This document shows positions 14,697 through 60,109 of a DNA stretch of 64,000 nt, in pieces. Under the pieces are notes generated by a model. The model did no database searches, had not been told where the DNA came from, and worked only from the letters and a program-made list of their open reading frames with translations. Numbering within the stretch: the stretch's first letter is position 1; the number at the start of each line of letters is the position of its first letter. The stretch comes from Streptomyces sp. JB150 (GTDB taxonomy: Bacteria; Actinomycetota; Actinomycetes; Streptomycetales; Streptomycetaceae). The position numbers and the translations under genes were made by a program. The stretch spans positions 3,547,085-3,611,084 of the forward strand of contig NZ_CP049780.1 of NCBI RefSeq assembly GCF_011193355.1, read 5' to 3'.

Positions 14697-14722
14697 GTGG
14701 GCGTACTCCTTTCCTTCCTTCT

Positions 14723-14875
14723 CGCCTACCGGGTTAGCTGACGGGTTCGGAGCAGGAAGGTCTCCTACGCGCGTAAACCAGCCGTGTCCTGCGCGGTTTT
14801 CAGCCGCTGTGGACCCGACCCCTTACGCCCGATTCACCCCAAGGTGGTGGTTCCCCGGTTCCCTCACGGGATTCG
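14723..14875 (-). promoter_or_regulatory. ydaO-yuaA (cyclic di-AMP) riboswitch
   Basis: On the minus strand the leader carries the conserved ydaO blocks in order: GAATCCCGTGAGGGAACCGG, GGAACCACC, TTGGGGTGAATCGG, and the 3' block CCGAACCCGTCAGCTAACCC followed by GGTAGGCG. It ends about 25 nt before the GTG of the M23 peptidase gene. This class binds cyclic di-AMP and in actinobacteria precedes wall-hydrolase genes such as rpfA; the ligand-bound form turns expression off. Boundaries are approximate. Confidence 0.92.
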
Positions 14876-15029
14876 GCGCGTGCGCACGGAGCCGCCTCTG
14901 GTGACGGCTGGGACGACCGCGCTGCGTTATCGGACGTTAATAGAACCAGGGGGTGATTTCCAAGCCGTTCCGCTTGATCATTACGGTTCGCCGGGCGGAC
15001 GTAGCGCCCAGGAGCGGCTAAAAACGGGC

Positions 15030-43262: not shown

Positions 43263-43334
43263 GCGGGTGTAGTTCAGTAGCAGAACATCCCCCTTCCAGG
43301 GGGAAGGCGCAGTGTGCAATTCCTGTCACCCGCT
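43263..43334 (+). tRNA. tRNA-Gly (TCC) with atypical D- and T-arms
   Basis: 72 nt. Acceptor GCGGGTG/CACCCGC and anticodon loop CTTCCAG are normal. The D-loop is AGTAGCA, so the G18-G19 pair is reduced to one G. The T-arm reads GCAGTG-TGCAATT-CCTGT: it has a bulged T in the 5' strand and the loop begins TGC instead of TTC, so the motif is GTGC, not GTTC. Staphylococcal tRNA-Gly used for peptidoglycan bridges has the same GUGC sign and weak EF-Tu binding. The discriminator is T. Downstream lies a normal tRNA-Gly(GCC). Confidence 0.93.
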
Positions 43335-57398: not shown

Positions 57399-59759
57399 TC
57401 ACAGGTCGGCCTCGGCGCTCCCGCCCGTCTGGGCGCGCCGGTCGCGGCGTCGGGGGCGAGGGCGGTCGGAGACCCAGAAGGCCCGGGACATGACCTTCTG
57501 CTCGTGCTTGGTCCGCTCCCGCGTCAGGTGGTCCTTGAACTGCCGCCCATGGGCCTTCAGGGCCTCGGTGACGAGCAGGTCGGCGAGTGCGCCGAGACCC
57601 GCCGCCTGCAGGGCTCCGACCAGGGCCGCCTGATCGGCGCAGGAGCGGGCGCGGACCATGTGGTGAAGGATCCGTCGCTGCACGCGCTCCGCGCGCGGAC
57701 CCACGCCGCTCGTCGAGCCGAGCCGCTTGACCAGCAGGGCCACGTCGACCACCGGACCATGGAGGTACCTGTCGGTGATCACCGCGTCGAGCTGGCTCGT
57801 CAGCGAGGCCGACTCCAGGGCCAGCATCAGGTGGGCCAGGGTCGGCACCTCCATGGTGCTCGCGTGCCGGCACAGGACGTCCCGGCCGGCACAGCGCGAA
57901 CCGGCTTCGGCCAGGGCGGCGAGGAAGAGGCCCGCCTGTCCCGCCAGCTCGTCGTGGACCGCGCACCGGAAGACCGCCTCGGCGGGCGCGTCCAGCCCGT
58001 GGTGCTCCAGCCAGGTCAGCAGTGCGGCGCACTCGGCCGGCGTGAGGATCCTGGCCGCGGTCCGCATGACCGACTCCAGGCCCGGTGCCATACCGCCCAG
58101 CAGGTCCAGCAGCTGCTCGATCTGGTCCACCGGTCGCGACCGCACGGTCAGGACCAGCAGGTTCGCCGCGAACTGATGGCGTCCCGCCATGTGCAGCTCG
58201 CTGATCAGGACGGCGACGTCGTCGACGGGACGGCACCTCCCCGCGCGGGACAGCACCGACCAGGCCCGTCCGTCCCGCAGGGCCTGGACGAGCGGGATGA
58301 GATGGCCGATGCTGCGGTCCTGGGTCAGGGCGAAGACCGTCTCGGCGTCCCGCTCCAGGCCGTGGTGGCTCAGCGCGCGCAGGAACTCGGCCACGTCGGA
58401 CGCGGACCGCCCGGCCGCCACCGCCCGCTGCAGGACGTCCGCGTACCGGGACAGCCGCACCTCGCGCAGGGTGAGGCGCAGCGTCACCAGGTCGGGCACC
58501 GGTCGCTGGGCGGCTGCCGCCGACATCGCGGTGACCACCGCGCCGTCGAGTTCGCCGCCCGCCAGGGTGAGGGTCACGGACACCAGGTCGGGCACCGAAC
58601 GGACCACGGCCGCCGCACCCAGCAGACCCTCCGCGTGCTCCGGGAGCCCGGCCCGGTGCAGCGCGAGGGCGAAGTCGGCCAGGTCCTCGGGCTGGTGGAA
58701 CCGCACCGACGCCTGGACCAGGATCACCACGTATTCCTCCAGGCCGTCCCGGAACAGTTCCCGGGCCAGGGCACTGGTGTCGTCGACCGAGCGGACCATC
58801 AGCAGGGCGGGCAGCGCGGTCTGGGCGTGCGTGTCGAAGCCCGCCCGCCGCAGCGCGGACAGGAGCCCCGCCACCTCCTCGACGGTGCGCGACTGGCCGG
58901 CCGACCGCACGAGCTCGCTCGCCATGGCCTTCCGGGTACGCAGTTCCAGATCCCCGACGGCCCGCACCAGCTCGGGCACCGAGGACCTGCGGTCGGCCTC
59001 CTCCAGCATCGCCACGATGGAGGGGCGCTCGTCGTCGTCCTGCTCGCCCCCGCCCAGTGCCTGAAGGGTCTCGAGCCTGCTCTCCAGCCGGTGGCACCGG
59101 TCCTCGGCGGCGATCAGTTCCGCGCGGGTGACCGCCAGTGCCTCCTGCAGGTAGATGACCTGTTCCTGCAGGTCACCGCTTTCCTCCTGAAGCCGCGCGT
59201 ACTCGCCCCGCCACAGCTCCACCTCGCCCCGGTGGGCGAGCCGCTGCTCCTCCAGCTGCGCCTCCAGGTTCCGGCACCGGCCCCGTACCTTCGCCAGGCG
59301 GCCCTCCCGGTCCAGCAGCGCCTCCTGCAGGGCGCGCTGCCGGGTCGTGATGCGGCGGGTCTCCTCGTCGGCCTCGGCCAGCCTGTCCTGGAGGGCCTGC
59401 ATCTCACTGCTGTGCCGGTTGCTCTTCAGCGCCGCCCGGTGCAGCTCCCACAGAGCCGCCTGCGCCTCGGGGGTGAGGGGGGCCCGGGCCTTCTCGACTT
59501 CCTCGATGATCCTGGTGACGAAGTCCCAGGGCGGGACCCGCTCGCCGTTGAGGTAGCGGGTCACCGAGCTGGGATCGATGAACTGCCGTGCCGCGAAGCG
59601 CCGCACGCCGATCCCGAGCACGAGGAAGAGCTGGCGCAGATGCTGCGCCAGCGCCCGCTTCTCCGGGGGCAAGCCGTCCTTCAGCGGGGCCAGCCTCACC
59701 GGCCGGGCCGGGGCGGCCGTGGCCACCTCGCCAGGGGTGGGCGCCTGTCCGTCGTACAT
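57399..59759 (-). CDS. HTH / coiled-coil / alpha-solenoid protein of unknown function
   Basis: 786 residues. After a short N-terminal tail there is a helix-turn-helix (LAQHLRQLFLVLGIGVRRFA, then DPSSVTRYLNGERVPPWDF) at about 35-85. A coiled-coil runs from about 105 to 235. The C-terminal ~500 residues are about a dozen helical units of 32-34 residues (for example VPDLVTLRLTLREVRLSRYA, ASDVAEFLRALSHHGL, VDDVAVLISELHMAGRH), alpha-solenoid-like, PPR/TPR-like in period. ATG 59759 is chosen because sequence upstream is low-complexity. A dyad operator lies between it and a 53-residue divergent membrane peptide. The family is not recognised. Confidence 0.82.
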   Translation of the reverse strand: MYDGQAPTPGEVATAAPARPVRLAPLKDGLPPEKRALAQHLRQLFLVLGIGVRRFAARQFIDPSSVTRYLNGERVPPWDFVTRIIEEVEKARAPLTPEAQAALWELHRAALKSNRHSSEMQALQDRLAEADEETRRITTRQRALQEALLDREGRLAKVRGRCRNLEAQLEEQRLAHRGEVELWRGEYARLQEESGDLQEQVIYLQEALAVTRAELIAAEDRCHRLESRLETLQALGGGEQDDDERPSIVAMLEEADRRSSVPELVRAVGDLELRTRKAMASELVRSAGQSRTVEEVAGLLSALRRAGFDTHAQTALPALLMVRSVDDTSALARELFRDGLEEYVVILVQASVRFHQPEDLADFALALHRAGLPEHAEGLLGAAAVVRSVPDLVSVTLTLAGGELDGAVVTAMSAAAAQRPVPDLVTLRLTLREVRLSRYADVLQRAVAAGRSASDVAEFLRALSHHGLERDAETVFALTQDRSIGHLIPLVQALRDGRAWSVLSRAGRCRPVDDVAVLISELHMAGRHQFAANLLVLTVRSRPVDQIEQLLDLLGGMAPGLESVMRTAARILTPAECAALLTWLEHHGLDAPAEAVFRCAVHDELAGQAGLFLAALAEAGSRCAGRDVLCRHASTMEVPTLAHLMLALESASLTSQLDAVITDRYLHGPVVDVALLVKRLGSTSGVGPRAERVQRRILHHMVRARSCADQAALVGALQAAGLGALADLLVTEALKAHGRQFKDHLTRERTKHEQKVMSRAFWVSDRPRPRRRDRRAQTGGSAEADL

Positions 59760-59795
59760 CCGGCCAGTATCGCCGCGGTCCAACTCGCCTGTGGT

Positions 59796-59858
59796 GGCAA
59801 TGGTGTTGCCGTCCGGAACGGCAACACCCCCGAGTGCTGCCACTGCGAACGGCAACAC
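59796..59858. promoter_or_regulatory. Operator in the divergent promoter region (11-bp dyad plus third half-site)
   Basis: GGTGTTGCCGT (59802-59812), spacer CCGGA, ACGGCAACACC (59818-59828): a perfect 11-bp inverted repeat. A further GAACGGCAACAC at 59847-59858 repeats the right arm 31 bp away (about three helical turns). GGCAA-TGGTG-TTGCC overlaps on the left. A probable -10 GATACT lies six bases before ATG 59759 on the minus strand. The simplest reading is autoregulation by the HTH protein. Confidence 0.75.
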
Positions 59859-59947
59859 GCGCGGCGCCCTTCGACGCCTTGCCTGCCGTCCGCGTGGGCA
59901 ACGATCGGTCCCACGGTGCACACGCCGATGCGAACGGGAGGAAAACC

Positions 59948-60109
59948 ATGACCATGACCGACGACGCCAGGACCGACGACGCCGGGCGGCCGCCTGCCGC
60001 GCGATCCGCCTTCTGGCACCGTCTCGCCCGTCAGGCGGCTCTCGGCGCCGCCGGTGCGGTCGGTTCAGGGGTGGTGACCCTGCTGGTGTGGTGGCTGCGG
60101 GGCGGCTAG
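59948..60109 (+). CDS. 53-residue single-span membrane peptide
   Basis: Starts MTMTDDARTDDAGRPPAARS, an acidic then Arg-rich N-terminus, and ends with a hydrophobic helix AALGAAGAVGSGVVTLLVWW followed by LRGG. A strong GGGAGG lies six bases before ATG 59948. It is divergent from the HTH-solenoid gene and shares its promoter region. Too short for a family assignment; it could be an anchor, a sensor, a holin-like or toxin-like peptide, or a protein-protein partner. Codon use is Streptomyces-like. Confidence 0.7.
   Translation: MTMTDDARTDDAGRPPAARSAFWHRLARQAALGAAGAVGSGVVTLLVWWLRGG

Follow-up and report, generated by a model that had tools for sequence, protein, structure and literature searches.

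A divergent two-gene cassette of Streptomyces pairing a helix-turn-helix solenoid protein with a predicted single-span membrane peptide, a possible self-repressed conflict system

We analysed a 64,000-nucleotide stretch, referred to here as the window, from the single-contig 7.32-Mb genome of Streptomyces sp. JB150 (NZ_CP049780.1, positions 3,547,085 to 3,611,084). It carries a pair of divergent genes with start codons 188 bp apart, one encoding a 786-residue protein that joins a helix-turn-helix (HTH), a coiled coil and a solenoid of helical repeats, the other a 53-residue peptide with one predicted membrane span. Comparison with related loci supports this pairing well, and the two genes appear to be inherited together as a two-gene Streptomyces cassette. 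The features of the locus, in window positions and with the evidence for each, are as follows (dN/dS, ratio of nonsynonymous to synonymous substitution rates; PPR, pentatricopeptide repeat).

57399..59759, minus strand: gene for the HTH-coiled-coil-solenoid protein, 786 residues (translation, ATG start)
57543..58982, minus strand: solenoid of about 15 helical repeats, each about 32 residues long, approximately residues 260-739 (autocorrelation; weak PPR-like matches)
59040..59432, minus strand: coiled coil, approximately residues 110-240 (3.5-residue heptad periodicity; weak SMC/Rad50-type profile matches)
59490..59672, minus strand: HTH region with approximate boundaries, about residues 30-90, motif SSVTRYLNGERVPPWDFV (HTH_31 in relatives; match to the protein L107)
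59766..59771, minus strand: -10-like GATACT, putative promoter, 6 nt before the ATG of the 786-residue protein gene (sequence reading)
59802..59828, no strand: putative operator dyad B, perfect 11-bp arms and 5-bp centre, GGTGTTGCCGT-CCGGA-ACGGCAACACC (conserved in relatives)
59834..59858, no strand: putative operator dyad A, imperfect, GTGCTGCC-N9-GGCAACAC (genome pattern search)
59936..59942, plus strand: ribosome-binding site GGGAGGA of the peptide (sequence reading)
59948..60109, plus strand: gene for the single-span membrane peptide, 53 residues (translation, homologues, dN/dS)
60035..60091, plus strand: transmembrane span at residues 30-48, containing the Gly/Ala patch GAAGAVGSG (hydrophobicity)

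An earlier, sequence-only reading of this DNA had described the large protein as divergent from a well-initiated 53-residue single-span peptide, and the open reading frames (ORFs), the GGGAGGA before the peptide ATG and the dN/dS values all agree with it. Its architecture of HTH, coiled coil and repeats also held, with a repeat count of 15, somewhat above the dozen or so that had been claimed. Hydrophobicity autocorrelation over residues 262-760 peaked at lag 32 (0.365) and lag 64 (0.311), where shuffling gave a 95% maximum of 0.147, and units laid out by hand gave 15 repeats of 28-37 residues each. The 786-residue query itself had no Pfam HTH match; among 53 aligned relatives, 11 matched HTH_31 at E ≤ 0.1 (best 7.6e-6), and residues 34-110 of the query matched the N-terminus of L107, another partner of the peptide family (30%, E 2e-6).

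Neither protein reached the curated cut-off of any family in Pfam or NCBIfam, in keeping with the earlier reading, which had not recognised the family. When the 8000 candidates sharing most words with the 786-residue protein were scored, 62 database proteins, including the query, matched it at E ≤ 0.001. The label 'ATP/GTP-binding protein' given by NCBI is unsupported, with a Walker A motif in 0 of 53 members. The gene is single-copy in its own genome.

The peptide has a sole hydrophobic span (residues 30-48, mean Kyte-Doolittle value 1.75), with basic residues N-terminal to it, an aromatic end and little sequence outside it. Glycines 33 and 39 and Trp49 are invariant across 24 aligned peptides. 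In the 13 pairs tested, dN/dS was 0.23-0.74, as expected of a coding gene under purifying selection.

To examine the pairing, HTH-coiled-coil-solenoid loci were gathered by protein similarity to the 786-residue protein, leaving 25 after removal of same-contig records; genes in the relatives' loci were called by a home-made script, and the genome samples are draws from Streptomyces. A divergent peptide of the same family was present at 21 of the 25 loci. Eleven of these 21, the window included, had contributed to the alignment from which the peptide profile was built, and the other 10 had not. Two peptide-positive loci, L064 and L065, have a damaged large gene, and the L065 peptide is a weak, relic-like match (E 1.8e-4). 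As a control, 35 records matching the HTH-coiled-coil part only were searched (L043 and L068 lie on the same contig), and none had a peptide within 800 bp. The proposed co-occurrence of the two genes was thus borne out, and the comparison of 21/25 with 0/35 indicates that the peptide is tied to the solenoid-bearing form of the protein and not to the HTH-coiled-coil module. These 21 loci, together with the 62 database matches, rule out an isolated orphan.

The block 57452-60109 aligned to the related locus L031 at 78%, a nearly equal block aligned to L052 and L053 at 72-73%, and a shorter stretch to L054 at 69%, while nothing outside the block aligned to any of the four at E ≤ 1e-10. Since the two genes and their gap align and the flanks do not, the pair behaves as a cassette. 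Of 296 genomes from the actinobacterial class, 10 gave a solenoid match at E ≤ 1e-6; these 10 belong to one genus, that of the window, and the match was full-length in the own genome only. Among plasmid records, 26 had a match and 4 covered at least 80% of the query; one of the 4 (H4) shares its record length and position with the contig of genome G094 and was counted once. Large Streptomyces plasmids carry the pair too, and in two of the three opened the peptide was annotated as 'hypothetical protein'. A phage or virus origin was rejected, since 50,697 phage records gave no match and viral contigs contained no relative. A search of relatives for an empty insertion site beside tRNA-Ser found no tRNA in the 1.5-kb flanks of the response regulator.

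The intergenic gap holds two dyads of the GTGTTGCC-N9-GGCAACAC type, with centres 31 bp apart, or about three helical turns. The perfect 11-bp dyad reported by the sequence-only reading lies at 59802-59828 (dyad B); the third half-site it saw 31 bp away is present, not as a lone element but as one arm of the imperfect dyad at 59834-59858 (dyad A). The perfection of dyad B was rejected as a sign of significance by itself, perfect 11-bp inverted repeats with a gap of at most 10 being common in the window (29 entries, overlapping registers counted apart). The dyads are significant because there is a second one, because they recur in relatives and because they are nearly unique in the genome. Of 19 loci, made up of the window and 18 relatives, 16 contained GTTGCC-N9-GGCAAC with at most one mismatch, so that the pattern is indeed conserved, and each of the 16 beat all 300 shuffles, which were first-order resamples of its own region. 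In 9 of the 19, the pattern occurred a second time when up to two mismatches were allowed. Across the own genome, GTTGCC-N9-GGCARC occurred at three positions, two in the intergenic gap and the third inside a 381-residue ORF that appears lgt-like by eye. The GATACT 6 nt before the ATG of the large gene is compatible with a leaderless transcript, and GATA[CG]T was found within 80 bp of the HTH-gene start in 14 of the 19 loci, at varying distance. Self-regulation is likely, because the genes co-occur, the dyad is conserved and neither gene rises above a family cut-off. This arrangement is most naturally read as the HTH protein repressing both divergent genes, which is the likely and best-supported step of the proposed mechanism.

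The solenoid was also found outside this architecture. Near-full-length solenoids (E < 1e-100) were present in 14 of 291 Streptomyces genomes, 11 of the HTH-coiled-coil type and 3 fused to a caspase. In the latter (G007, G249 and G254), the caspase is of the EACC1-associated type (222, 222 and 188 bits, respectively; cut-off 140), and the one caspase-solenoid protein scanned by Pfam also contains LysM. Kaur et al. (2020, PMC7159879) describe EACC1-caspase loci as membrane-associated conflict systems of two genes, variable at their C-termini and prevalent in actinobacteria, that combine a large multidomain protein with a small component having one transmembrane segment, a small/glycine patch and alpha+beta flanks. 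Directly upstream of each caspase-solenoid gene lies an ORF of 118-123 residues; these ORFs are 47-74% identical to each other and resemble the described EACC1 in having one transmembrane segment and a small-residue patch, and no NCBIfam model matches them. Judged from sequence, the solenoid thus accompanies a predicted small single-span protein in the caspase loci too. At L058 (4626-7763), the HTH-solenoid/peptide pair itself adjoins a caspase locus that also holds solute-binding and VWA domains and an EACC1-like ORF; its caspase scored 132 bits, just below the cut-off of 140.

Homologues of the peptide likewise occur beside other conflict-type proteins, that is, suspected bacterial immune proteins, and are divergent from proteins of the NB-ARC-TPR and nSTAND1-WD40 types. 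The domain scan of the peptide-neighbour ORFs covered 10 of the 19 listed, with L150, L159 and L160 left out as likely wrong-frame. With the solenoid in EACC1-caspase loci and the peptide family beside conflict-type proteins, the pair is not an isolated system. The interpretation offered by the sequence-only reading is partly supported. Neither the pair nor the peptide family is described in the titles and abstract openings of the open literature searched, a scope outside which subscription papers fall. Within the peptide family, one subfamily, FLQGAAYKLGSGAVTLLILWWETRH (L179, L182, L183, L185-L187 and L189), has no HTH partner noted, and lies near both chromosome ends in G091; a second, RYGRLVATNFLRGASYACGT (L158, L164, L167, L168 and L172), has varying neighbours.

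We tentatively interpret the two genes as a self-repressed immune or cell-death (conflict) pair of Streptomyces, a reading in which our confidence stops a little short of even. The similar peptides beside other suspected immune proteins point to a defence system. In the mechanism that we infer, the HTH-coiled-coil part would dimerise, bind the two tandem dyads and keep both genes low. The solenoid of 32-residue repeats would be the sensing or scaffolding part, sensing being suggested by its placement, which is like that of TPR and WD40 sensors in related architectures. Following a trigger (phage, another invader or stress), repression would be lifted, or the large protein would engage the peptide, or both. 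The peptide would then act at the membrane, where it would most likely oligomerise and cause damage or depolarisation, or would otherwise anchor the solenoid. Its role is the weakest step of the mechanism: basic residues ahead of the span, the pattern of glycines and an aromatic end would suit a helix packing against other helices within the membrane, whether to act as effector or to serve as anchor.

Several observations weigh against a conflict system of this kind. Four of the 25 solenoid loci (L033, L036, L233 and L237) have no peptide, L033 carrying a different divergent hydrophobic ORF instead, and in three of the 19 loci (L033, L034 and L059) the half-sites are spaced differently (by 10 bases in both L034 and L059). 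When 40 peptide matches were picked by sequence alone, a divergent HTH-type ORF was seen by eye at 16, with 2 more doubtful, and whole peptide subfamilies have no such ORF noted. The peptide family is absent from the three caspase-solenoid loci, both sides counted, and its profile scored at best 3.4 bits against the EACC1 candidates, with no detectable homology. PADLOC 2.0 gave only weak coiled-coil matches for the 786-residue protein (best E 0.014) and none for the peptide. Finally, the neighbours of the pair in its own genome are housekeeping genes (dnaX, SRP RNA and tRNA-Ser), with no defence island.

The HTH-coiled-coil part is a shared module that is also joined to other C-terminal parts, in which case no peptide accompanies it. 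In L041 (4597-6507, minus strand) it is fused to DnaA (TIGR00362, 428 bits, cut-off 343.9), L044 ends in a receiver domain (Pfam), and in P0058 it is joined to TPRs, with an NB-ARC-like region seen by eye in the relatives of P0058. Judged by length or eye, DnaA fusions also occur in L043, L066-L069 and L083-L088. Receiver-ended proteins of about 360-490 residues were assigned by eye in L045 and L047 and by length in L070-L082, and L040 and L048 end in a domain judged trypsin-like by eye, without Pfam support. Fusion to receiver and DnaA domains is regulatory rather than lethal in character, and favours a reading in which the peptide does no more than anchor or adapt, drawing the HTH-solenoid protein to the membrane by titration and so controlling its DNA binding; the output would be transcription of its own locus, or development, and not killing. 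Two further points fit this reading: there is little of the peptide beyond its span, and the dyads are confined to the locus save for one coding-sequence match, as in a small autoregulatory switch. We consider this reading rather unlikely, and the first of the alternatives.

A toxin-antitoxin pair kept for maintenance, in which the peptide would be a small membrane toxin and the HTH protein its antitoxin and repressor, is a poorer fit. It would account for a small single-span peptide with an HTH partner, the shared putative operator and the plasmid carriage, yet a 786-residue antitoxin with a 15-repeat solenoid is disproportionate, the genes are divergent rather than in an operon, and peptide subfamilies with no noted HTH partner are hard to reconcile with a lethal toxin; we regard it as distinctly improbable. 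Least probable is a PPR-type RNA-binding array, with the 786-residue protein a post-transcriptional regulator and the peptide incidental: designed PPR proteins match the profile weakly (E 0.008-0.009) and PF01535 is hit by 4 of 53 members at E ≤ 0.1 (best 0.0027), but these matches are marginal, the repeat length is 32 and not 35, and the peptide goes along with the solenoid form.

Compared with known systems, the proposed conflict pair is like the EACC1-caspase loci in having two genes, a small partner with one transmembrane segment and a small-residue patch, and a large multidomain protein; in addition, three such loci have a solenoid homologous to this one as their variable part. It differs in that the 786-residue protein has no caspase match in Pfam or NCBIfam, the peptide is 53 residues with no alpha+beta flanks of the kind described for EACC1, and its genes are divergent, whereas the small 5' and large 3' genes of EACC1 loci are codirectional. 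It resembles STAND/NLR proteins in having an N-terminal module followed by large, sensor-like repeats, and through the peptide homologues divergent from STAND/NLR-like proteins. Unlike them, its family has G-x4-GK[ST] (Walker A) in 0 of 53 members and no NTPase domain was found; when the STAND-type HTH and the solenoid-family HTH were compared as profiles, the outcome was negative (probability 0.4%), and only the L107 N-terminus matched. The tandem two-helix-type repeats of about 32 residues, with their marginal PPR matches, are like PPR/TPR alpha-solenoids, and differ from PPR in their period of 32 instead of 35, with PF01535 scores short of the cut-off and no match at E ≤ 1 in the query. RexAB is a two-component phage-exclusion system. 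Exclusion of the RexAB type, and Sbash gp30/31 (PMC6426596), may be analogous in combining a cytoplasmic sensor or regulator with a membrane partner; the sizes and architecture of the partners differ from those of the pair.

If the conflict interpretation is correct, Streptomyces would have an unnamed immune or cell-death class whose tiny membrane partner is annotated as 'hypothetical protein' or missed, and in which a shared design, a variable sensor with a tiny membrane partner, would connect the NLR-like sensors of bacteria with EACC1-caspase systems and the new solenoid. The pair spans only about 2.7 kb and could be transferred to a laboratory strain, so a direct test is possible.

Elsewhere in the window, an Rfam match to a tRNA (51 bits) lies at 43263-43334 (plus strand) and is absent from the ARAGORN output, and a c-di-AMP riboswitch was detected at 14709-14888 (minus strand, 93 bits).
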